Source: Neelides folsomi (taxonomy: Eukaryota; Arthropoda; Collembola; Neelipleona; Neelidae). Taken from it: 64,000 bases of DNA. The position numbers and the translations under genes are program-made. Below are positions 10,436 to 46,863 of the stretch, piece after piece. Numbering within the stretch: position 1 is the first letter of the stretch; each line of letters opens with the position of its first letter. The stretch covers positions 124,001 through 188,000 of the forward strand of contig JAQGBZ010000003.1 of assembly GCA_034687125.1 (NCBI GenBank), given 5' to 3'. The notes under the pieces are model-generated. The model did not search any database, had not been told where the DNA came from, and saw only the letters and a program-made list of their open reading frames with translations.

Positions 10436-11199
10436 ATGAAGATCTCTCGAATAGGAATTTTTGTTTTTATTGGGATCTTTCTTCTTGCCATTATAGATGA
10501 AAGTTACGGGCGTAAAAGAAAGAAGGAGCGAGAAGAATCAAAGGAAATGACAGAAATGGGCGGAATGGAAGAAATGCAGTCATCCCTTCCACCACCACCC
10601 TGCAATCCAAGAATGAAACATAAACATCGTGGGAGAGGACGACCAAGGAAAAATTCAAAAGAGAGTGACGAGTCCGGATCCGAAGAAGGGTCTGATGAAG
10701 AAAGTGAGGATTTTGATCTATCATTAAATTATAATTTCTCAATGTTTAAATTCTAATTTTTTTAAAAGGACCAACACCTCCACCGCGAAGGGAAAGGCAA
10801 AGGAAGCATCATAGAAGAAGAGGAACAAGGAAACGTTGCTCAACAACTACAAGTACAACCACTACAACAACATCAACTACGCCCACAACCACAACATCGA
10901 CAACAACACCAACCACGACAACGGCACCAACAGTCGCTACGGTTCCAACAACTACTATGAGTACAACTCCTACAACAACAATGTCGACAACACCTACAAC
11001 TACGACTACAACAACGACTCCAACTACTACAACAACTCCTACCACTACAACAACTCCTACCACTACAACAACAACTCCTACAACTACCACTACAACAGCT
11101 CCGACCACTACAACAAGCACAATCCAATCGACAACTACAACTACGACAAGCCCTACAACGACTTCCACAACTACACGCGACCCATCAGTCAAAGCTTGA
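10436..11199 (+). CDS. Secreted mucin-like Thr-rich protein
   Basis: Exon 1 10436-10703 and exon 2 10769-11199 join as GAAGAA-A|GTGAGG ... TTAAAAG|GA in matching phase; 232 residues. Seen: a signal peptide (residues 1-25, ending E-S-Y-G), a strongly basic and acidic segment with R-G-R-G-R-P-R-K and a Glu/Ser/Asp patch, a second basic run (R-R-R-G-T-R-K-R), then about 110 residues of TTT(T)P repeats expected to be heavily O-glycosylated. The ACN repeat tract at 10840-11180 makes long spurious frames on both strands (poly-Val, poly-Cys, Asn/Tyr-rich). Likely an extracellular matrix, gut-lining or mucus component; the exact role is unknown. R-K-R just before the Thr domain could be a furin-type site. 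Confidence 0.75.
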
Positions 11200-15886: not shown

Positions 15887-16303
15887 TTAAGCATTCTGAA
15901 CGATAACGTTAACGTTTGGTGCAACGCTTGGTCGTTTGTTCACAATACAGCAGGCATGAATCACTCCTAAATAAAAAAAATTATAATATATTCATTATTA
16001 ATCATCCTTGTGTCACATTAATATGTCATTTTTTTTCATATTGGTAAAAGTAGAAAATGCGTGTATGTAAAGCGCGAATGTGTTTTGTATTATTTAATTT
16101 TGAAAATTATACAAAACATTAAATTCGATTTTTCGATTCCATTTTATGAATTTTTAACCAATTTAATTTTCAAAGTACTCACCCGGGATGTACCCCAAAA
16201 GTGTTAGGATGAGATTAAGACAAAATTCGCTTCCACATCCATAATCTAGCAAAACCCCAATTGGAGGACAAAGGCAGGCACAAATGAGTGAACAGCAACC
16301 CAT
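15887..16303 (-). CDS. PMP3 / UPF0057 family small membrane protein
   Basis: Two exons, 16303-16183 and 15966-15887 (phase 1), 66 residues. Seen: C-L-C-P-P-I-G-V-L-L-D-Y-G-C-G-S-E-F, then L-N-L-I-L-T-L-L-G-Y-I-P-G-V-I-H-A, which is the PMP3/YqaE signature spanning two membrane helices. Known members are proteolipids that affect membrane potential and salt tolerance in yeast and plants; the role in animals is unclear. The N-terminus M-G-C-C is Cys-rich (a possible lipidation site) and the tail after the second helix is polar. Confidence 0.88.
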
Positions 16304-18103
16304 GTTATAATCTAATATGATAATTTATGAAATGCTACCCGAGCTTTCGCTTACATTATTTGTATAATTAGTTATCGCAATCGTCGATGTTAATAATCTA
16401 TTTGTATTTACCTTTATTTGTTCTTCTTTGACGAGATGGAAAAGGATGTGTTTTAGATGAATCGGACGCCTAATGAGATTGATGAAGACTTGTGGAGTGA
16501 ATCAATGGAAGCGTGGACGCGTTGAGGATTAAACAAATGACGAATATTTCCCGAGATAAAACGACTTGAAGGCGTTGAAGGTCTCACAAAAACGCTAATC
16601 TAACAAAATATTAACGATTGAACGAAATGAACGTTTTACTAGTATAAATAAAAATAGAGTATACTTGAACTTTTTGTGTATAATAACGAGCGTGTAATCG
16701 TTAGTGAGTACATGATTACGTTTTAGGATAGGTTAACTAACAATAAGCATATAGTGCTATTAAGTATGTGTGATTTTAAATGTGCTTAAGTCTATACTTA
16801 TGAATCTATACTTACTACAAATATAATGTATTTAAATGTGAAAACTTTGATTTGCGTAAAATGCATACCAACCTCTATGCAGAATATGGTAGATCTGTCT
16901 TTTATCTCGCTCTCACAGACTTTGACTTATTTAATGCTGTTATTTTAAATTTTAACTGTCCTCCGTCGCCGGTACTCTTCGTATACATTAATATTATCTA
17001 TGTAGCTACTCAATTACATAACATGTTACTCTCTAATGTTTTATGATGAACTTTTTAGTTATTTTACAGCTCTATTATAGATATTATTTAATTGTTTATT
17101 ACGCAAGAAATTCGTAGACCGGATGAACTCAAAATGATGCTAAAATCTATTTACCTAATATGGTAATGATATTAGGAAGAAAATTATTTGGTTCAACATG
17201 ATAAAAACTCAATTCTCAGAATGGAAATGACAAATAAAAGCAATGGTGATAATTTGCAAGTAACCAAATGCTTCAATTCTTGATATTACACTTTATATTG
17301 ACTTTATATGATATTTATGTATTTATTTGATGAAAGTGGGATGTGAAGGATTTATTGAATGTTTTTGGAGCGAAAAATTGTTCATCATGAAATATTCAAT
17401 GGAACAAATTGAGAATCGAAGGCCCAATGGTAAATTGGAAACACGATTGTATAATATGTATGAAGAATATAAAAATGTATTCAATTTTATACATTTTACT
17501 ATGCATTTTACATAGCATATTTCTCCTAAAGTTGAAGTTTAGCCACGAAAAGACAAGTTGGATTTTACAATTTTTCATGTACCAATTCAACATGCAAGTA
17601 AGCATTATCGTTTATCATGAATGTGCGTTTAAGCCTTAAGCTTATTATCTTGTATTGTGTTTGCGTGTAAAATCAATTAGATCAATATTTATACAAAAGT
17701 CCATCACTATGTTTTGAATGTTTAGGTTTAGTTATGTTAGTTTAGACTATGTGAAAATAATTTAATATCATATGATATAACATATAAATGAAATTTTATA
17801 AATATAAAAGCCTAGAAGGCATGTCATGTAAGTCATGTAATATATGAATTAGCTGAATTATTGAATTACATATTTAAAATAATTACAAATATTTTTCGCA
17901 TGCTGATTCTTAGCATATAGTAGGTGATTGTGATCATCAATTGTATATTAATAAAAAAATATCTGTGATAAATTCAATAAAACCAATCGAATAGGATTTT
18001 TTTATTTGGGTTTCAGACTTCGAAAAAATCAATTGCCATACACTTGATTACTAGAATAGAAGAAATTGCTTGAAACGAGCCGTTGTAAATATTAGGAACA
18101 TCT
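16304..18103. other. Intergenic
   Basis: 1.8 kb; 16430-16620 is less AT-rich and may hold 5' UTR or promoter of the PMP3 gene. Frames at 16852-17046 and 17327-17639 lack splice or domain support. Nothing else recognised. Confidence 0.45.
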
Positions 18104-24310: not shown

Positions 24311-25115
24311 TTAGCCAGTAATGATAGATAACATAGCATTACAAAGACACTCAAGGAACATTGACATCAAATTGAAAACTAAAGTTAATCCATCTGGAAT
24401 AACCTTGTTATTATTTGAATGCGGTTTAATTGGCATTAAGGCATGCGTGTGAATATTTGGATTGTCTGCAGATATTAGAAATTCCCCAGTTTGTGAGTCC
24501 TCTTCGTTGTTAGTTACAGTTAAATTGGCATTTGTTGTCGCTGGCTTACGTTTGTCACCCTGGCCCTTTTGAATGCCACTGAAAGAATTCTGCAAATTGG
24601 GGAGAATATTCAACAAAGAAGACATTTGAAATTTATTTCCCATTTTGTCCTTTATGAATCCGCGTGCCAATTGTTCAGAGACCATTTTCTCCACTTTCAT
24701 CTTGAGAGGAAGATCCGAAGGGTTCGTTTTATTATTTTGTTCCAACTCTTCCAACTCAATTGCGACCGGTGAATTTAAGTCAATTGATGAATTTGAGGAA
24801 AGTTCCTCTTCCTCTTTACTTCCTTCAGATTGCATGCTCACGTATTTTTCATATCTTGCATTTTCATAAATTGATTTAAGGTCTCTGATTTTTTGGAAGA
24901 TAGAAAATTGAGGATTGGCTTCCGTTGGCCCCGCTGGTTGGACTATCTGAGACGTAGCGTTGACTTTGTCATCATCTAATGCTGGAGCACCATGAGCAAT
25001 TCCAATAACCTGACAAATTCACGAGTAAATTATTGATCGAGTAAAATGCTTTTGGCACTGCTAAATATAATAATCAAAATCTCACCATCAAGATCAGAAG
25101 TAATTTGAATTCCAT
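24311..25115 (-). CDS. Array member A: secreted protein with hydrophobic C-terminal E-C-L-C segment
   Basis: Exons 25115-25086 and 25009-24311 (phase 0), 242 residues, the largest of eight tandem relatives. The signal peptide is split by the intron (MEFKLLLILM | VIGIAHG), as in all members. The middle is long, polar and Ser/Glu/Lys-rich. The C-terminus is hydrophobic: L-T-L-V-F-N-L-M-S-M-F-L-E-C-L-C-N-A-M-L-S-I-I-T-G, ending the protein. Unrecognised family; the shared features are the intron inside the signal peptide and the acidic-C-x-C motif in a hydrophobic helix. AATAAA (24306-24311) overlaps the stop. Confidence 0.75.
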
Positions 25116-25921
25116 AATGCAACAGAGTTTGTGAGAAGGCTTGAGAATGAACCCGAATGGGTGAAAGAATGGTTGGGTTTGGAACACCTTTATGTTCAAT
25201 TCATTTCCAACCCTCCTGGCACTTCTTTATTTTTATGCTCACATTCCCAATGTGCATGTGATTTGTGAACTCGTGTCAATGTTAGAAAGAGAAAGTTTAA
25301 TTTCATGCTTATTAAAGGTTCGGGTAATTTAAGTTTGCAGTGAAATTGAAATTTTTATGTTTAAGGATCCTTTCCAATTCATTTACATAAATAAAGGTTT
25401 ATTAATTACATAATTATAATCAATGCTTATAAGTATAATTTATTGGACATTATAAATTGTTATTAATATTGTATTAACGAGGAAAAAGGTTAGGGTGTGT
25501 TTGTATGCATCATTTGATTACAAGAATGTTTTTATATTGGTTGTAATTTTTATCGATTTATTGTATTCATTTAATTAATCATTTAAGATTATTTTATGCT
25601 TTTATTACTCCGATCTCAGTTACTCATCAATTTTTCAAATTGGTTTTATAAATACATATCCACTTACACATTTTTCACTATTTAAAATATTTTTGATTGC
25701 TTACTTAAATATAAACAAATTAAATGGTAAACTAACCACATTATTATTTAGTTGATAAAACAAATCCTAAAATAATAATTTCATAAGAAAAATTAAATAA
25801 ATAAATTTAATAGTTGATTTGATGTAGCTCCAATTATGGATAAATGTTAATGAAATTAAGGAAAGATGAGGAAATGACGCTAATAAATGTTTTTTGTTAA
25901 ATAATATAATTTCAATGCACT
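25116..25921. other. Promoter side of array member A
   Basis: AT-rich; a CATAAAGGTG (minus strand, about 25190) could serve as TATA element. No gene seen. Confidence 0.4.
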
Positions 25922-25925
25922 TTTA

Positions 25926-26497
25926 TTACTTAATGAGCCCTAAAAGGGCTAGAAGAGTGGCAAGAAGACCATTAATATTCGAGGATGGGTTTAAACCTAA
26001 AAGTGCTGCTAACAAACTACAAACACAGTCGATGATGATGGTGACAAGGGAAATAAGAGCTCCGAGGACCTCGGTGTCTGTGAGAATTAAACTTAATTTT
26101 TCATTTGTCTGAGTCTGAACCGGTGATGATTCTCCGACTTCATTCTTATGAGCTCTCAATTTGTTAGCAATAGCCCTGGGTCTGGTCGACAAATCCCCGA
26201 GTTGGCTCGTCAATGCAGTTTGGATCAATTTGCTAATCAAGTCGGAGTTGACAACTTCCGCCCGTTCGGTCTTGACAATTTCCTTGGGTTGTTCAGCCAC
26301 TACTGGAGCCGCCTCCTTCACGGTCGCTCCAAGAGCCACAGCCAACATCTAAAAAGAAATATGAAGAACAAATTACCAATAATACTCTTTATATGGATCA
26401 ACTACATATTAGCGATAAATGTTGAGAATATCGCAGAATTTGCTAGCGATTGAAAAATTGAATAAATTACTGTTGAGAGAAGGACGAGTCTAAGCAT
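25926..26497 (-). CDS. Array member B: secreted protein with I-D-C-V-C hydrophobic tail
   Basis: Exons 26497-26471 and 26348-25926, 149 residues. Signal peptide split by the intron (MLRLVLLST | MLAVALGA). A Lys/Glu/Thr-rich middle is followed by A-L-I-S-L-V-T-I-I-I-D-C-V-C-S-L-L-A-A-L-L-G-L and a second Leu-rich stretch to the end. The two hydrophobic segments are separated by N-P-S-S-N. Orphan family, second gene of the array. AATAAA (25922-25927) overlaps the stop. A TATAAATTC on the minus strand near 26585 is a candidate TATA box. Confidence 0.75.
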
Positions 26498-27020
26498 TTT
26501 AACGAATATCTGGACGCGAATAAATAAATTTCTTTCCTCGAATGATCAACGGTTGACTGATTATACAGTGTGATTTCTCCCGAATTTATACTAGTCTAGC
26601 GGGAGGGTTTTAATTTTAGATGATAGACGCAGGCCGTTATATTTTGGAATTATATTTAGTAAATTTTAACAGCTACAGTTCAGTCGCCCCTCCAGTTGTC
26701 GAAGAATCTTTTATTCGACCTTATGATATTCTTAGTTTTTCTTGACGTATGGAACTATGAGAAAATTATACAGCTACGACATTTTTTGAAACACCTGCAT
26801 ACTAACAGTAAATTATATCGTATTTACCTAAATAAATAAAGCATATGCTTGTATGGTTGTATGAACGTACTTTTAAATATTGGCTATTATTTAAATTAAT
26901 TTACAAAGTCGGCCTATGTATTTCAATCATTATTTTCATGATATATATTATTTTTGGTAATTTGCATTTTGTGCATAAATCATTAAATATGTTAAATTAT
27001 TAAGAATTAATTTTTTCAAC
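26498..27020. other. Promoter side of array member B
   Basis: AT-rich, with the TATAAATT-like element near 26585. No gene recognised. Confidence 0.4.
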
Positions 27021-27021
27021 T

Positions 27022-27530
27022 TTATTTCGCTATTTCTTGTTGAAGGAGATTACATAAAAAGTCCAAATAATTAGAAGCAATTTCCAGAATAAATTCAATG
27101 CTAGCCTCAGTCGGATTTATCAAAACAGGGCCCAGAAGTTCACAAAAACAATTAATGAGAACTCCAAAGATGTCTGTGATTTCTTCAGCAATTTCTTCTC
27201 CAATGTCAACACATTCAGACAAATGAGTCAAAGATGCCAAAATGGATGAAGTTAGTGAGGTAATCAACCCGGATGGGTCAATCAACTTAGGAGAAAATCC
27301 CTTTACTTCTTTCCTTAAAGAAGGAAGGGAACTTCGGAGATATTCCATCTTATTGTCAGCCTCACGAACTCCGCAGTTTTTTCTTGCTGGAAAAGATCCA
27401 CCGCCCGTTATGAACCCCTAAACACAACAAATCATTTAATTCGAAAAACCAAAATTAAAGATGAAATTACATTCGCTTTTTAATTCTCATTTTTTCTTAC
27501 CACTAGAAGGAGAACCACCAGCGGACCCAT
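27022..27530 (-). CDS. Array member C: secreted protein with I-N-C-F-C segment
   Basis: Exons 27530-27501 and 27417-27022, 141 residues. Signal peptide split by the intron (MGPLVVLLLV | GFITGGG). The middle has one Cys near residue 30 (K-N-C-G-V) and another in S-E-C-V-D. Then D-I-F-G-V-L-I-N-C-F-C-E-L-L-G-P-V-L-I. The acidic position before C-x-C is Asn here, and a further amphipathic tail ends in L-C-N-L-L-Q-Q. AATAAA (27021-27026) overlaps the stop. Orphan family. Confidence 0.75.
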
Positions 27531-28214
27531 TTTGTACGTTTGTAAATAATTGAATTCTAATCATTGTCCTCAATAAGTAAAACAGCTTGAACCAAAATTC
27601 GTCAGGCAGTGAGTTTATTTTAAAATCTTTATTATTAAAACGAAGGTGAGCTTGAACTTGGATTGTGAAAGTGAGCTTGTCAAGGTGTACTTAATAACCT
27701 TTTTCATGACTTTCTCTTTTAAGGTTCTTTTCTAGTCGGATTCCCTTTGCCGTCAGCTTCCGCCTTTAAGTCTTTAATCCCTCGGGATTTTTTTCTAAAA
27801 GCTTCTTGTAGTTTTATTATAAGTATCCGAATATATGAAAAAAGCAAATACCAATGAAAAGATTATTGGCTATGACAAAATGAAAATACTTTAAAACGGT
27901 AAATGTTCATTTACCGATCTATGTTAAAATAAATGTATATACCTAAAACGAACTGATTCTGAATTTAACAAATTAGGGAATTTAAATAGAATATTGGCAG
28001 GATTTAAGCTTTTAATCAAATTACTTGATATCCTTCATTGTGTATGCTTGTAAGTTCGCTTTATGAGAAATGTGTTTGTAATTATTTGGTAATGACAATG
28101 ATTTATCTATCTAGATACATAATATCTGTATAATATGAAATTAGCTATGAATTATGTTATTATAACCAACTTAATTGACATTTTATTGATTTTAATTGAT
28201 ATTGATATATTCAT
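27531..28214. other. Intergenic within the array
   Basis: Promoter side of member C. No gene recognised. Confidence 0.4.
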
Positions 28215-28215
28215 T

Positions 28216-28804
28216 TTATTGATATTGTTTAGTTTGAGGTAAAAGTTCAAAAAGTTGAATTGCCATTGAACAAAAACAGTCAATAAGATTGTAAATGAGG
28301 AAACAAATGATGTAGATGATAGAAAGAAGACAAGAACAAATTTCTCCCAATCCTTTGGATCCTTTTTCCTTCATCTTCTCCATAATCGTGTGGAAGTTGA
28401 GGTCTGTGCTTTTCTTCATCCCATCTATCCCTCCCATCATCATGGCGATTTTCTCTGAGAGTCCCATCTCCCCAACCGCGTCTGTGTCCAGTGCAGCATT
28501 GAAAAGCTCTTCGATGGCTACTCGAACTTTCTCTGCCTGTAAACTCAAAGTATTCACCGGGGTTGTCGGAGAACTTAAAACTCCTCCAATCTACAAAATT
28601 AATAATATTTTAACCAATTATTTAATCAATTTTAAATGTTATCGTTCTCCATATTTAAAATTTGGTATTTTTAAACAAGAAAACAAGATTCAAGATTGAA
28701 CAAAAAGAAATTAATAATAAATAATATGTAATATTATAAAAAATTTGTATTTTATTGATTTTTACCAATACTGAGAATAAAATGAGTATTGGAGGATGAA
28801 ACAT
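28216..28804 (-). CDS. Array member D: secreted protein with I-D-C-F-C segment
   Basis: Exons 28804-28766 and 28590-28216, 137 residues. Signal peptide split by the intron (MFHPPILILFSVL | IGGVLSS). The middle is helical-looking, with Met/Glu/Lys runs. C-terminus: C-S-C-L-L-S-I-I-Y-I-I-C-F-L-I-Y-N-L-I-D-C-F-C-S-M-A, closest to members G and H, which share L-L-S-I-x-Y-x-I-x-x-L-I-Y. AATAAA (28215-28220) overlaps the stop. Links the short-motif members (A-C, F) to the G/H subgroup. Confidence 0.75.
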
Positions 28805-28895
28805 TCTTTCAAGAAGGATTGAAATGACTGAATGCTTAAAGGGAAAGGGTTAAAGGTTTACCCATCTTTTTAAGGTACTTTCCACTTTACTTTGA
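28805..28895. other. 5' flank of array member D
   Basis: Short promoter region; no feature recognised. Confidence 0.3.
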
Positions 28896-29192
28896 TTCAA
28901 TACCCTGCCTCTACAACAATACATTTTGAGGTGGACCATCCCCCAAGAACCAATCCTTACTAATGATTTTGTTAAAAATGTTAACATTAGGTACCTGTAT
29001 AGGGAAACTAAAAGTGAAATCCGAAGACTAATAGAAATAAAAAAAGTCATGTTCAATGCTCTGCCACACTACCATACTGACAATGAATACTTTAAAAAAG
29101 TAAGCAATATCTTTGGACAGCCCTTATTACCTGTAATTATAAAGTACATAGGAACTAACAAGTGCCATTATGAAGATATTAATGAATCATGA
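28896..29192 (+). other. Coding-like open frame on the opposite strand inside the array
   Basis: The frame is open from 28896 to a TGA at 29190-29192 (98 codons) with a natural-looking composition (for example L-Y-R-E-T-K-S-E-I-R-R-L and V-S-N-I-F-G-Q-P-L-L-P), unlike the low-complexity frames nearby. No ATG near its start and no clear splice acceptor. It could be a fragment of an old retroposed or transposon gene, or one exon of an unseen + strand gene. Not recognised. Confidence 0.3.
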
Positions 29193-29294
29193 ATGATGAA
29201 AATAAATTACTTTTTATGATAAAAGGACAAGTCAAGTAAAATAACTGCTGAAACAATAATTTATTAGGCTTTCAATTAAAATATTTATTTAATG

Positions 29295-29841
29295 TTAATC
29301 AAAATTGCTCCTTAATTTAATGCTATCAATAAGACATTGGAAAGCGTCACAAAAGGAGCTCATGAGAACGCAAGCGACTTGGCTGATTCCTTCAGCTACT
29401 TTGTTGATTGGATCCAAAATCCCTTTTTGTTTTTTAGGTTCGGTCTTAGTCGGTTGTGGAGTTTTTGCATATTCAAACTTTCCGATCACTTCCTTCACAT
29501 AAATATCTTTATTCTCCTTCAATTTATTCACTTCCTTTACTTCTTTCTCCTTCACTTGTTTAGTTACTTCCTTCACATACTCTTCTTTATTTTCTTTGAT
29601 TTCCTTTTCCCGTTTAACTCCCTTTGATTCCTTGTCTTCTTCGAGCAGATCGTCAATTGAGTTACTCATTGTAGGACCGGCGGAGACATGAGCCAGGATC
29701 TAAAAAGTAGTTAAATCTCAATTAAGTTATTTATTTAAGTTAGGCTGTGAGTGTAATTATTGGTATTTAATCATTTTGATGTGGAAAATAAAATATATGA
29801 AATCTTACAGCGACAACAATGATGAGCGACCACCAATTCAT
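29295..29841 (-). CDS. Array member E: secreted Lys/Glu-rich protein with divergent C-terminal segment
   Basis: Exons 29841-29809 and 29699-29295, 145 residues. Signal peptide split by the intron (MNWWSLIIVVA | ILAHVSAG). The middle is an unusual run of Lys-Glu-Val repeats (K-E-V-K-E-V-N-K-L-K-E) predicted to be a charged helix or coiled coil. The C-terminal segment is less hydrophobic: Q-V-A-C-V-L-M-S-S-F-C-D-A-F-Q-C-L-I-D, so the C-x-C motif is altered. Placed in the family by position, intron site and layout. AATAAA at 29284-29289, six bases after the stop. Confidence 0.65.
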
Positions 29842-30337
29842 TTTGGTTCTTATTTGGAGGGAACTTGGAGAGAAATGCCTCGTTTGGAATTGAGAATTGT
29901 AAATATAATCGAAAACGGCATTTCTATGAAGGGGAGTTGAATGAACTTACTGTATTTTTATATTTATTGGACCCTTGGATTACTTTCTGAATTCACAGTC
30001 TCCTTCCAAATAAGGATCAATCATAAACAGATACGGTACACACATTAGTGCTTTTAAGATAATTAATTTTATAAGGTTTTAATCAACCAATCTTATTTTT
30101 AAATTTAAGGATGTTTATCAATATGAAAAATGACGTTTTATCAGAAAAAAAAATAATTTGGGTCATTTAGAATGATAATGGTTTATTTTACAAATAACTT
30201 ATTCGGCCAATATTAATTTTTTTATTTATTTAAATTATATTCCATGCGCTTTTAATAGAGCTTAAAGTTTATATTTACAAATGAAATGAATGATACAAAA
30301 AAGTAATTGAAATCACTGTAGATCGTGATGCTGTATC
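29842..30337. other. Intergenic within the array
   Basis: Promoter side of member E and 3' flank of member F. Nothing recognised. Confidence 0.4.
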
Positions 30338-30828
30338 TTATTTCGGGGCTGCTTCCGGTTCAGCTGCAATTATTAGGCAAAGACAATCAATGAACGCTTC
30401 AATGAGTGCTGTAATGCTTGCAAGGATGGCTGGAACAATGTCAGTGATGTTGAAAGTTTCTTTGTTCTCAACGCTGTCCAGAAGGACGTTGACGAAATTA
30501 ATTTCCTTCTTTTCTCCATTCTTGATTTGAGACGCTGCGAGTTTGACCAAATCCAATTTCCCTCTTCCGTCATTTCCCAAAACGAAACTCAAAATTTTAT
30601 TCCACTTAGAATGGGCCTTTTCCACTTTTTCAATTTTCACATCTTGAATGTTTTCTGGGTCGTGGGATGTTTCTTCTTCAAGGAGTGGTGCGGAAGCAGC
30701 GAGCGTCAACTTAAAACAATACAATTAAAAATTTAAAAATATTAATTTAAATTAACAAATCAAGGTGTGGGTAAAATATGATTTAATACAAGTAGAGTGA
30801 GGATGAGGATTTGAAATGGAAAATTCAT
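30338..30828 (-). CDS. Array member F: secreted protein with I-D-C-L-C tail
   Basis: Exons 30828-30790 and 30709-30338, 136 residues. Signal peptide split by the intron (MNFPFQILILTLL | LTLAASA). The middle is polar, with G-N-D-G-R-G-K-L-D. C-terminus: I-V-P-A-I-L-A-S-I-T-A-L-I-E-A-F-I-D-C-L-C-L-I-I-A followed by a short A-E-P-E-A-A-P-K tail. Same layout as member B. No AATAAA directly at the stop. Confidence 0.72.
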
Positions 30829-31605
30829 GATTTGATTGGTAAAGACGCCGACTTCCGTGAACTTGAAATGAGCAAAGGGAAAAGAAAAATATAACAAGCT
30901 TCTACTTCAGAGAGGTTCATTTTTAGTTAAATATAGGAATCAACTTAAAACTTTAACGGTCATTTTGAAAGTCGGACCTTTGCATTTATATTTAACGAAG
31001 ACAATTCACCTTTTTGTCAAAGAAGAGCGAACAAAGGTGAAGGCGACAAAAGTGAAAGTTTTATTCTCTTTAACTTAAAGTCCATGTCCATTTGATTGTT
31101 TATTACCTTAAATAGATAATTTATCTGAATCAAAATACTGCAAATGTCACAATGTATTTATTTTAAAAGACGAATATACCGTTAAATACCAAACATTTTG
31201 GATAGCAGAAATACAATCTCAACTTTTTTCGCCTTTAGCAATTTAGTAATTAAGTATTTACTAGATAATTAACTAAAATATAAATGAAATGATAAATGTT
31301 ATAAGTAGAATTTTTTTATTTATTAATGTCAAAATGATTATAAATATGATGGCAAGAATCTTTACATGTCTGTATAATGCTTATTATTAATAAATCAAAA
31401 TGTCCATTTTTTCATTTTATTCTTTCACAATAGATATATTGGTATTATAACTTGTTGTTTATAAATGTTAAATTATGACATTAAAAAATTTCATTTTACA
31501 TCATAATATGATACTTATGGTATTAAATTAATGTTTAAATAAGTAAAATAATTAATACAGCAAACATAATACGATTGAAGTTAAAGGATATTCAATGGTT
31601 AACAT
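30829..31605. other. Intergenic within the array
   Basis: 5' flank of member F; an A-C-T-T-T-A-A-C-G-type motif near 30950 recalls the upstream regions of G and H. No gene. Confidence 0.35.
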
Positions 31606-32266
31606 TTAAAGAGATATTTTTAAAAAGTCGCATGATTCGATGAGTGTAAAAATAATGATGCAGAAACATTCGATAAGAGTATAAATGAGATAACAAATGG
31701 CGTAGAGAATACTGAGAAGAAGACAGCAAATTGCTTCCAAAATGTCATCGTTACTGAATTTCTCTCCCACCTTTTTCTTTCCAATGATTCCGTTGAAGAT
31801 GGAGGCGAAATTACCAGGTTTCGGAGGAGTCAAGCTTGGCTTTGATGGTTTCTCGAATGGAGATGTTCCTGAGATCGGAGGATTCTCCTGATAATTCATA
31901 CTCGGATTCGGATAATTTCCTGGTGGTTTTCCCAAGAGATTCCCAAGATTCATTCCTGGAGCAATGCCATCGAATGTTGCTGTGCCTTGTGGGCGGCCTC
32001 TTTGCTCTGAATTCAAATCAGTAAAATCTTTTGAAAATATTAATTTTGAATATCAATTGAATTCAGAGTCATAATTTGAATTTTAAATTAAATAAATAAA
32101 TACTCACGTTCTTCGGTGGCTGCCAAGGACAGGCTGGCCAGCTATATAAAAAAATAAAGCATTTACATTAAACGATATACCTAATTAAAATTAAAATTGA
32201 TTTAATTACTATTAGTGTATTAAAATTTTAATTTACAGCCAGCAGGAAAACAGTGACTCGGAACAT
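31606..32266 (-). CDS. Array member G: three-exon secreted protein with I-E-C-F-C segment
   Basis: Exons 32266-32237, 32141-32108 and 32006-31606, 154 residues. The signal peptide is spread over two exons (MFRVTVFLLA | LASLSLAATEE). The middle is Pro/Gly/Asn-rich (P-P-G-N-Y-P-N-P). C-terminus: I-C-C-L-L-L-S-I-L-Y-A-I-C-Y-L-I-Y-T-L-I-E-C-F-C-I-I-I-F, then S-C-D-F-L-K. Closely related to member H over coding and upstream DNA. An extra intron separates this pair from the two-exon members. Confidence 0.78.
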
Positions 32267-32358
32267 TTAGAAAAATTGTATTGAAACTTTATAGGTAAAA
32301 GCGGTAAAGTTGGGAAGCAGTGAGGTGAACTTGAACTTTTAACAAATGATAAAGAACC

Positions 32359-32370
32359 GGCCCTTTTATG
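32359..32370 (-). promoter_or_regulatory. TATA-like element of array member G
   Basis: Minus strand CATAAAAGGGCC, about 95 bases upstream of the ATG, identical in sequence and placement to that of member H. Confidence 0.55.
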
Positions 32371-32924
32371 CCTTGGAAGGGCTTAAAATATGGAAACGTT
32401 AATTATAGGAAAGGGAAAGTTGAAGTTTTGCGTTCTTGTAAGGTAGGTAGGTACCTTACGATTAGTTAAATTTTATGATTCATAAATGTCCCGCTACCTT
32501 AATAAGTTTAATTGTACTCATTCCCTGGTTAAATATTTCAAGTACCTCAAATCTCAAAAAAGTTCAAATATTTTATTGAACACATTTACATTAAGATTGG
32601 TGCTTATTATATAAAATGCATCATTAAGTCGAAATAATTAAATTAAATGATTAATTAATTAATGCCGAAATGATTATGATTTTATGAAATTTTAATATTT
32701 ATTTTATAATAGGTAAGTCAATATGTAATTCCTTAATTCTATTATTTTTATCAATATAATAATAATAATATGTATTATGGCTTATGACGTTATGATATAA
32801 AAATATCATGACAATAAAGAGATTTCAATTTATATCGTGAGCATTTTAATGAAAAATGTTTAAATAAAATATTTAATACCACAAACAAAAATGATTGAAA
32901 TTAAATGATTTCAATAGTTAATAT
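32371..32924. other. Intergenic between members G and H
   Basis: Includes a conserved upstream block of member G (to about 32420). The rest is AT-rich with no feature seen. Confidence 0.4.
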
Positions 32925-33579
32925 TTAACGAGATAACATTTTTAAAAAGTCGCATGATGCGATGAGGGAGAAAATAATTTCGCAGAAGACTTGAAGAAGC
33001 ACATAAATGAGATAAGAAATGGCGTAGAGAATACTGAGGAGGAGACAGCAAATACATCTCAAAACGTCATCGTCGTCGAATTTCTCTCCGGGTTTTTTCT
33101 TTCCTAGGATGCTAGAGAAGATTTCTGAGAAATCTTCAGGGTTCGGAGGAGCCATTTCTGGCTTCTGGAAAGTTGATGTTCCTGAGGTCGGGGGGTTCTC
33201 CTGATACTCCATATTAGGATTTGGATAACCTGGCGGTTTTGCTCCATTCAAGAGATTCCCGGCATTCCTTACTGTCCCTGTCCCATCGAATGTTGCCGTG
33301 GCTTGTGGTGTCCGTCTTTCTGAATTCAAATGAGTAAAAATTTTTGAGAAAATTAATTTTTAAATCCAATTTAATTCTGGATTATAATTATAATTTAAGA
33401 ATAAAATAACTCACGTTCTTCGGCGGCTGAGGACAAACTGACCAGCTATAAGAAAATAAAGTTTATTAAATGAGGCAATTAATTTGATAATCATAATTAA
33501 TGTATATTTATAAATTATTATTCATATTTTATTTAATTTCTAAATTTACAGCCAAGAGGAAAACGATGACGCGGTACAT
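32925..33579 (-). CDS. Array member H: three-exon secreted protein, recent paralog of G
   Basis: Exons 33579-33550, 33445-33415 and 33319-32925, 151 residues. Signal peptide over two exons (MYRVIVFLLA | LVSLSSAAEE). It shares with G the sites Y-Q-E-N-P-P-x-S-G-T-S, A-T-A-T-F-D-G and I-C-C-L-L-L-S-I-L-Y-A-I. The motif before the last Cys is L-Q-V-F-C, so the acidic residue and the first Cys of C-x-C are lost. Ends S-C-D-F-L-K-M-L-S-R. Orphan family. Confidence 0.78.
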
Positions 33580-44797: not shown

Positions 44798-45685
44798 CCT
44801 CAATTATACAAGTGGACAATGAGAGGGATGAAAAAGGAGATGATCAAAATCACAGGATCTTTTCTCATATGGAACCATAAGGAACCAACAGCGGCTCCTT
44901 CTAATAATCCTATCCTTACAGGTAACCAAGTTCCGTTGCTGTCAACACTCCAAGACTTTGGCGTGATCGATTTGCCTTTTATGTGCCCCTTATATGCAAA
45001 CATCGCTGGTTGTTAAATTATATTCTCTTTCATACTCACCCCCTGTAAATGTCATTAAAACATTAAATTTTTTTAATAAATATTATCTCAATGCCCATTG
45101 TATCATTCAAAATGACAAGTGCTACATATAATATGCATGGGAAATTATTTATGAGAAAAAATTGAATATGGTATGTAGCGGACATAAAAAAAATTTTTTA
45201 TAATGAATTAAGTGAGTTATCTATACCTGTAGATGTCAATTTTGGAAAATTGCATTGAATTTAAAACATTTTTGACCCTCAGAGTGCTTGGAAATCAGGA
45301 TATTTAAAAATAATGAATTTATTGTACAAAATGTAAATTGATATTGATTTTGACCATTATATATATTTTTCTATTTAGCTTGAGCTTTCTAATTCGGAAC
45401 TTTTTTATGTGGCGTATGATAACATCTATGGAATGTGTATGGTATGTATTGAATACCATACGTAATTGTTTCGAAGTGGAAGACAAAGAAATTTAATTTT
45501 TTCCAATTTCAGTCCAGATGGTTGGGGAGGGTTAAGTAAATAGGCTAGTGGTCCAATTTCGGGCAATTTCTTCCTAAATTGGTCATGTTGAGGAGGGAGA
45601 GGAGGGTTGGGAGACGCCGTGGCACCGTTTTCTTCCTACTTAAATCCCCTTCTTCCCCGCTACCCGCCACTCTTCCTCCAACCCC
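44798..45685. other. Intergenic, divergent promoters
   Basis: Between IFT81 and the Gly-rich gene. 45560-45680 is GC-richer and leads into the start of the next gene. No other gene supported. Confidence 0.5.
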
Positions 45686-46863
45686 ATGTGCAACATGTGG
45701 AGAGTTTGGGTCTTTGTCGCCTTCGTGCCTCTCGCCTTCGCTGCCACCAATCTCACGAGCTCCGTGAGCAAAAGAGACGCTCCTTTGGACGTAGGCTACA
45801 GCGGAGGAGGCGGAACAGGCGGAGGATATGGAGGAGGTGGACAATCATTCGGTGGGGCTTATTCCGGCGGAGGTGGCGGAGGTTACAGTGGCGGCGGTGG
45901 AGGAGGATACAGTGGCGGAGGTGGTGGAGGAGGATACAGTGGCGGAGGAGGCGGCTATGGAGTTCCGGCTGGTGGTTCAGGTGGAGTTTACAATTACCAA
46001 GTAATGCCTTCTTATGGAACAGGAGGAGGATATGATGAAGGTCAGTTGATTTTTTTCATTTTGGATATAAAATCTTCATTTGAACTGGAAAAGTTATTAC
46101 AGATGTATTTGAATTTTAAAAGATTTTGGTGCTTTTATGTGATCTTTGTATTTTTATTGTTTAGATGAAGATGATGAAGAAGGTGGATTTGGTGGAACTG
46201 AAGCAATTTGCCTTGCTTCATTACTCGGAATCAAAGGTGGAAAGGGACTGAAAGGAATTAAAGCTGTGAAAGCGGCGAAAGCAGCCAAAGGCGCTCTGCT
46301 CGCCCTTAAAGCCGTCAAAGGTGCAATTCTTCTTCCGCTGAAACTCATCGGACTTCCGATTATTTTGCCATTCCTTCTTCTCTTCGCTGCCTTGCCGTTT
46401 ATTTTACTCCTTTTGATTCCTGTCCCGGTCATTTCGACGACGCCGGGTAGAAGGCAAGCAAATTCTGATGGAAATTCCCCGTCGATTTTAAGTCAAACTG
46501 CCCGGATGGCTCAATCAGCTTTTACCTCACAAGAATGTATTGAGAGGATTTCTTGTCAAATCTCTCGGATGGCTCGTGGAACCAAAGCAGACAAATGGAT
46601 TCAATTGTAATGAAATTTAAACAATTTATTCTTAATTCCCGACCATCATATTAATTATTATCTTACTAATAACAATAACTGGTAAATAAAATATTATTAG
46701 AATAGAATAAGCGTTGATTTTGTGTTTGTTTGATTTTTGCAGTGCTATTGAAAAAGGGCCACTCCAAGGAACTTTGAAAGATCGAGTTAAAAAAGCAGCG
46801 GATTTTAAAAATGAAGAATGTAGCAGGTTTGAATGCGATCCTATTCGGATATTCAGAAGATGA
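45686..46863 (+). CDS. Secreted protein with Gly-Tyr-Ser repeats and a Lys/Leu amphipathic core
   Basis: Exons 45686-46040, 46165-46606, 46743-46863; phases agree; 305 residues from the first ATG, 302 from the second (45695), which gives the better signal peptide (M-W-R-V-W-V-F-V-A-F-V-P-L-A-F-A-A). Then S-K-R-D (possible dibasic cleavage), about 70 residues of G-G-G-G-Y-S repeats, an acidic D-E-D-E-D-D-E-E patch, a Lys/Ala/Leu helix (K-G-L-K-G-I-K-A-V-K-A-A-K), a 35-residue hydrophobic Leu/Pro/Ile run, and a C-terminal part with paired Cys (E-C-I-E-R-I-S-C and E-C-S-R-F-E-C). Possibly a cuticle or surface-coating structural protein; the Lys-Leu part recalls Osiris proteins only loosely. Confidence 0.72.

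Follow-up and report, generated by a model that had tools for sequence, protein, structure and literature searches.

What kind of protein is produced by a run of small neighbouring genes whose products resemble each other at both ends and hardly at all in between? This question is raised by an array of eight genes, named A to H, which lie on the minus strand between positions 24311 and 33579 of the window, i.e., the whole stretch of 64,000 nucleotides (64 kb) analysed from the springtail Neelides folsomi. All eight genes splice to complete single open frames, which begin with a predicted signal peptide interrupted by an intron and end with a hydrophobic segment usually marked by two closely spaced cysteine residues. 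Both the genes and their proteins are predictions obtained by reading the minus strand from 34500 to 23500 and splicing the exons by sequence. The answer proposed here, with a little less than even confidence, is that the C-terminal segment would form a helix for assembly or for association with a lipid surface, which would be fixed by disulfides and carry variable hydrophilic heads.

A predicted C-terminal helix and its 11-residue register

The hydrophobic C-terminus is centred on a six-residue motif, which reads FLECLC in A, IIDCVC in B, LINCFC in C, LIDCFC in D, FIDCLC in F and LIECFC in G, and which is altered to LMSSFC in E and LLQVFC in H. The six intact forms, and the fact that E and H deviate, are as given in an earlier reading of the same DNA (the first-pass annotation). 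In gene G, most clearly, the motif is embedded in a longer periodic structure, in which residues 108-151 (31618..31749, minus strand, coordinates derived from the spliced model) can be written in rows of 11 as DDILEAICCLL / LSILYAICYLI / YTLIECFCIII / FTLIESCDFLK. The C-terminus of A, PDGLTLVFNLM SMFLECLCNAM LSIITG, can be written in the same manner, and in C a second hydrophobic segment located after LINCFC (27025-27099, minus strand), IEFILEIASNY LDFLCNLLQQE, keeps the 11-residue register.

Single mature chains were modelled with AlphaFold2, from 5 sequences in the case of G and 8 in that of F. For G, one continuous C-terminal helix of 40 residues is predicted at residues 85-124 of the mature piece, with a mean predicted local distance difference test (pLDDT) of 61.5 for the model and values of 73, 85, 91, 91 and 66 for the ten-residue blocks counted from residue 81. 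For F, the C-terminal helix covers mature residues 81-112 (mean pLDDT 55.7; blocks of the helix at 69, 83, 82 and 58). Outside of the C-terminal helix both models are of low confidence. The C-terminal helix expected by the first-pass annotation is thus recovered in the two proteins that were modelled, whereas the membrane insertion proposed along with it is favoured for D, G, H and B only, according to a hydrophobicity estimate discussed below.

The F model also contains three further helices, four in all, and the middle regions of D and F align without any gap over 66 residues (23/1000 shuffles reach the score). These two features would suit small soluble helical bundles, such as hydrophobic-ligand carriers, with the C-terminal helix as their buried core. 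Such a bundle is nevertheless quite unlikely: in F the block pLDDT exceeds 60 for the last helix only, the G piece has no predicted structure over its first 60 residues, and the G model, the one submitted to Foldseek, matched no solved fold at E<=0.001.

Support for the register comes from self-similarity at a lag of 11 residues which, pooled over the eight C-termini, amounts to 0.23 versus -0.75 (standard deviation 0.13) in shuffled sequences. None of 2000 shuffles reaches this value, and the result is the same (0/2000) when the best of lags 2-16 is taken or when the hydrophobic/polar pattern is kept. Pooled over A, B, C, E and F alone, the same three tests are reached by 0, 1 and 1 of 2000 shuffles. 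Taken gene by gene, in windows that begin at the repeat itself, the period-11 z score is 4.9 for G, 2.9 for D, 2.1 for H, 1.7 for A, 1.4 for F, 1.2 for C, 0.8 for B and 0.5 for E, to be compared with controls consisting of 272 segments of mitochondrial membrane proteins (mean -0.11, standard deviation 0.98, maximum 3.0) and 53 hydrophobic segments of open reading frames (mean 0.08, standard deviation 1.10, maximum 3.3). Because values of at least 2 are confined to G, D and H, the 11-residue repeat is either degenerate in A, B, C, E and F or just the register of the helix. At the DNA level, 33-nucleotide repeats that would be the trace of a recent duplication of the 11-residue unit are not clear, since identity at lag 33 is 0.51 in G and 0.25-0.39 in the others, and at most 0.41 at third codon positions.

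Counted over 28 full 11-residue repeats plus part rows, the fraction of Ile, Leu, Val, Met or Phe is 0.78, 0.88, 0.79, 0.64 and 0.64 at positions 3, 4, 7, 10 and 11, respectively. Glu or Asp occurs at position 5 in 12 of 31 cases, and cysteine occurs predominantly at position 8 (13/29) and position 6 (7/30). For seven of the eight genes, only 0-50 of 2000 shuffles attain the amphipathic moment calculated at 98.2 degrees per residue. With a turn of 98 degrees from one residue to the next, some 164 degrees separate position 6 from position 8, which places them at opposite edges of the hydrophobic strip. Because the two cysteines of the C-x-C motif face opposite borders of the strip, a bond closed within the motif would be hardly feasible in a helix, and disulfides between chains appear likelier. 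The first-pass annotation had placed both cysteines in disulfides without choosing a partner, and helix geometry would narrow this suggestion to interchain bonds.

The same hydrophobicity could serve another purpose. In membrane-anchored surface proteins, the signal peptide would be followed by a variable ectodomain and a single C-terminal membrane helix, the acid-Cys motif pairing with partner helices. The insertion energies estimated with a biological hydrophobicity scale would favour a membrane span in D (-4.5), G (-4.2), H (-3.9) and B (-2.0), whereas F (0.1), A (0.5), C (1.2) and E (2.6) would be borderline or poor spans despite an identical layout. Moreover, the 40-residue helix predicted for G is about twice as long as a bilayer requires and has acidic residues distributed along its length, so that an anchor common to the whole array looks unlikely. 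Attachment by a glycosylphosphatidylinositol (GPI) anchor was considered separately and set aside because D, E and F have polar tails past the helix, a rejection which does not extend to A, whose sequence ends soon past its motif.

A further possibility is suggested by the residues located ahead of the helix. A KK, KR or KKK group occurs there in A, D, F, G and H, in or near a single alignment column, and K is invariant at the basic-pair column of the five-gene alignment. In defensive secretions built as prepropeptides, the variable middle would be cut off at such a site and the C-terminal helix released as a membrane-active peptide. With their signal peptide, variable middle and C-terminal helical segment, the ant aculeatoxin and frog-skin precursors offer a similar layout, and two Pfam matches point in the same direction, both below the curated cut-off: the signal region of H to the frog-skin signal/propeptide family FSAP_sig_propep (E 0.04, 14.4 bits, cut-off 27) and E to the ant venom allergen family Sol_i_2 (E 0.029, 14.8 bits, cut-off 26). 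Against this reading, C and E possess no aligned basic pair and B has HK in its place, KK is a poor site for convertases, and G, H and C have helices of acidic and extremely hydrophobic, not cationic, character. Taken together, these observations make the release of a peptide rather improbable.

Probable kinship of the eight genes

Similarity between the members of the array is readily detected for some pairs. Within the window, tblastn links D to G (1.9e-9), D to H (3.3e-5), B to F (2.6e-4) and F to B (1.8e-5), with weaker links for D-F (0.013), F-G (0.04-0.055) and B-D (0.08-0.09). A motif profile was also applied with each gene left out in turn, G and H being left out together. The held-out score is reached by 5 of 2000 permutations of the same composition for A, 1 for B and none for the other six, and by 15 of 1211 decoy open reading frames for A, 6 for E and none for the other six. 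In C, the profile scores 16.3 at the main motif versus 18.8 at the best place in the protein. Hidden Markov models (HMMs) were likewise built with one gene left out, but G and H stay in for each other here and hence lend mutual support. For the mature sequences, block shuffles equal or exceed the real score in 266 of 300 cases for A, 1 for B, 47 for E and none for C, D, F, G and H. For the full-length proteins with their signal peptides, the corresponding counts are 1 for A, 15 for B, 23 for E and 0 for the other five. The mature part of A is therefore not recovered by the model of the other seven, and its membership depends on its place, its intron, its signal peptide and its motif; the mature part of E is likewise not recovered (47/300). 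From the results of the HMMs and of the motif profile, together with the same orientation, the same intron phase and the same place of the motif in the protein, the common descent of all eight genes is likely, A and E being the least certain members.

G and H form the closest pair, with 0.559 synonymous substitutions per site (Ks), 0.211 nonsynonymous substitutions per site (Ka) and a Ka/Ks ratio of 0.377 over 148 codons, which indicates real coding genes under purifying selection. Their introns align at 80% identity (71/89 and 76/95 aligned sites), and 141 bp upstream of H are 89% identical to G. The middle regions give a clear alignment for G-H alone among the 28 pairs (0/1000 shuffles); the best of the other 27 are C-E (8/1000), D-F (23/1000, as already mentioned) and E-F (46/1000), all weak. 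A single conserved domain was accordingly rejected for the middles, as most pairs are unalignable. The complete difference of the middles announced by the first-pass annotation thus holds for most pairs, with the exception of G and H, which are alike throughout, and of the three weakly similar pairs. Its broader proposal has found support, namely that tandem duplication gave rise to a secreted family in which the middles change fast while a cysteine-bearing C-terminal segment is conserved.

The number, strand and coordinates of the eight genes were already correct in that annotation. Gene A occupies 24311..25115 (exons 25115-25086 and 25009-24311; 242 residues), gene B 25926..26497 (26497-26471 and 26348-25926; 149 residues), gene C 27022..27530 (27530-27501 and 27417-27022; 141 residues) and gene D 28216..28804 (28804-28766 and 28590-28216; 137 residues). 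They are followed by gene E at 29295..29841 (29841-29809 and 29699-29295; 145 residues), which has a middle rich in Lys, Glu and Val, gene F at 30338..30828 (30828-30790 and 30709-30338; 136 residues), gene G at 31606..32266 (32266-32237, 32141-32108 and 32006-31606; 154 residues), with the clearest 11-residue repeat, and its duplicate, gene H, at 32925..33579 (33579-33550, 33445-33415 and 33319-32925; 151 residues). All introns are of the GT-AG type and 76-175 bases long. The first exons of A to H comprise 10, 9, 10, 13, 11, 13, 10 and 10 codons, within the range of 9-13 previously announced, and in all eight genes the first intron lies, as had also been noticed, inside the signal sequence. 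It is in phase 0 in 8/8 genes, 6-7 codons upstream of the likely cleavage site, as judged by eye from the -3/-1 rule. In G and H a second intron occurs directly past the signal peptide, so that the short first exon of the layout described at first pass was retained while a third exon had to be added for these two genes.

The split signal peptide itself proved less characteristic than had been assumed. Cuticle proteins of the Chitin_bind_4 type (PF00379) are secreted as well, and the genome which holds the array (75,104,828 bases in 840 contigs) contains 39 matches to this domain elsewhere. At least 4 of 14 inspected Chitin_bind_4 exons (including L023, L027 and L028) seem by eye to start with the latter half of a signal peptide; they have no in-frame ATG and about 12-17 residues left to the likely cleavage site, and their first exons were not found. 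Because cuticle genes of the same genome also have it, an intron-split signal peptide is ordinary in this genome and not distinctive. Among the features of the split signal, the constant position of the intron in the array is the only one that speaks for kinship.

The array is flanked by a GH38 alpha-mannosidase gene and a leucine-rich repeat (LRR) gene. A promoter of the TATA-initiator (TATA-Inr) type common to the genes is not convincing, a score of 13 being attained in 2/8 genes versus 4.7% of 600 control stretches, and a score of 12 in 2/8 genes versus 35% of the same controls. No convincing further copy was found by tblastn in the 64-kb window with the eight proteins as queries. The best matches outside the array, one between protein E and a stretch rich in Lys and Glu around 42.7 kb (E 0.011), the other between protein F and a stretch with stop codons around 11.9 kb (E 0.043), were both regarded as due to chance.

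Searches for relatives and known families

Against Pfam, the eight proteins gave 11 matches at E<=1, every one below its curated cut-off, and Chitin_bind_4 had no match at E<=1 in the array proteins. Among 5.8 billion proteins, a collection that includes UniRef and nr with their springtail entries, no relative was found at E<=0.1 for the array alignment (8000 candidates scored) or at E<=10 for G (65 candidates), in a word-based search which requires shared 5-residue words and which distant relatives may escape. Among PDB sequences none fell below E 0.1 (best 0.13), and the C-terminal profile found none at E<=10. In the springtail's own genome G matches only itself, H and D, with no member outside the array. 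A composite query made of the C-termini of A to F gave 8 matches at E<=10, 7 of them inside the array and 1 outside. The outside match (C474, E 0.17) was considered a chance match; on the opposite strand the place also has a 138-residue frame that resembles, by eye, a chitin-binding protein. In the literature nothing was found on this gene family, the coverage of subscription papers being limited. The first-pass annotation knew of no family with such a layout; none of the Pfam, protein-database and PDB searches assigned one. To judge from sequence, the array would thus represent a secreted springtail family restricted to a single locus, with no relatives found in the databases searched.

A possible mode of assembly

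Secretion, oligomerisation, interchain disulfides and association with lipid or an interface would be combined as follows. The signal peptide would export the proteins, and the variable hydrophilic head, predicted with low confidence, would come next. The C-terminus would form a single continuous hydrophobic helix of a hendecad-like type, in which positions 3, 4, 7, 10 and 11 are hydrophobic, position 5 is frequently Glu or Asp and positions 6 and 8 carry Cys. G, D and H would show this register clearly, the other five only in degenerate form. Such helices may pack on each other or on lipid by way of their straight hydrophobic strip, and the cysteines at both borders of the strip could then form disulfides between neighbouring chains. 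The chains would thereby be cross-linked into an oligomer, film or particle, with the variable heads on display.

Several points weigh against this assembly, among which the basic residues ahead of the helix in five of the genes have already been mentioned. The helices of D, G and H would be hydrophobic enough to pass for a membrane span. Taken singly, A, B, C, E and F give a weak 11-residue signal, the amphipathic moment of B is not significant (294/2000 shuffles), a lag of 11 is natural for any amphipathic helix, and the register was first noticed in G and then applied to the other genes. The sequences supplied to AlphaFold2 were both few and divergent, and its models describe single chains. 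The C-terminus of G and H is under no stronger constraint than the middle, with Ka/Ks of 0.585 (48 codons) and 0.389 (83 codons), respectively, in what are small samples.

Comparison with known systems helps to situate the proposed helix. Lipid-surface helices of the synuclein and perilipin type, with 11 residues in three turns (11/3), possess an 11-residue register and a straight hydrophobic strip, and they are weakly hydrophobic, Lys-rich and cysteine-poor. The array helices have the same register but are Cys-rich and strongly hydrophobic. In right-handed hendecad coiled coils the core spacing of 3-1-3-4 corresponds to positions 11, 3, 4 and 7 of the array repeat; compared with them, the array helix is more hydrophobic and has its cysteines at the strip borders. 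Other fast-changing secreted orphans are also known to occur in tandem arrays, and the signal peptide is often their conserved part. In the present array the part held in common, besides the signal-peptide intron, is the predicted C-terminal helix marked by cysteines.

A further comparison concerns the brochosomins and brochosome-associated proteins of leafhoppers, which are taxon-restricted secreted orphans whose cysteines are proposed to form disulfides (PMC10607721). They form an extracellular coating (PMC10607721), as the array proteins may do. They belong to a different animal group, the brochosomins have masses of 21-40 kDa, and the portion of the source at hand describes no 11-residue C-terminal helix in them (PMC10607721); the likeness is one of general description.

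A more ambitious suggestion, which must be regarded as a distinctly long shot, is that the family represents a new class of protein amphiphiles, in which disulfide-lockable hydrophobic helices with an 11-residue repeat and interchangeable hydrophilic heads would self-assemble extracellularly and could belong to the epicuticular granules, the wax interface or the gland films of springtail water repellence. For the water-repellent cuticle of Orchesella cincta, lipids and glycine-rich structural proteins are named in a review (PMC9861782). Roles in defence, as a venom-like, adhesive or lipid-binding secretion, in reproduction or in the cuticle cannot be distinguished from sequence. The cysteine-marked C-terminal helix with its 11-residue register would nonetheless offer a concrete and testable mechanism of assembly in a non-insect hexapod group, and new secreted candidates for the springtail cuticle would be useful even if their role turns out to be different.

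Other features of the window and the genome

Some other frames of the window deserve a mention. At 45644-46610 on the plus strand, a Gly-rich frame with a signal-like start precedes another frame, which contains KAVKAAK repeats and a long hydrophobic stretch rich in Leu, Ile and Pro; neither has a Pfam match at E<=0.001, and another secreted structural protein is possibly encoded there. A small frame at 16163-16324 on the minus strand, MGCCSLICACLCPPIGVLLDYGCGSEFCLNLILTLLGYIPG, counts among the hydrophobic Cys matches that lie beyond the array and seems to resemble the PMP3/UPF0057 family. A low-complexity frame rich in Thr and Pro occurs at 10750-11199 on the plus strand.

Elsewhere in the genome, the Osiris type (DUF1676) is represented by a single match (C457, L019 2670-3347; 27.3 bits, cut-off 24.3), whereas insects carry about twenty Osiris genes. 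The mitochondrial contig has trnL(UUR) between cox1 and cox2, which is the pancrustacean arrangement. Its COX1 confirms a springtail host: among the 120 best of 8000 candidates scored, the first entry is 93% identical, the next 37, at 79-82% identity, are springtails (35 according to their names, one labelled Metazoa with a Folsomia candida entry and one labelled Hexapoda), and beetles come after these. The genome also contains 8 matches to the dioxygenase domain DIOX_N, one of them in a gene at C223:19220-19549 (L020); several springtails have a beta-lactam pathway (PMC8138834).

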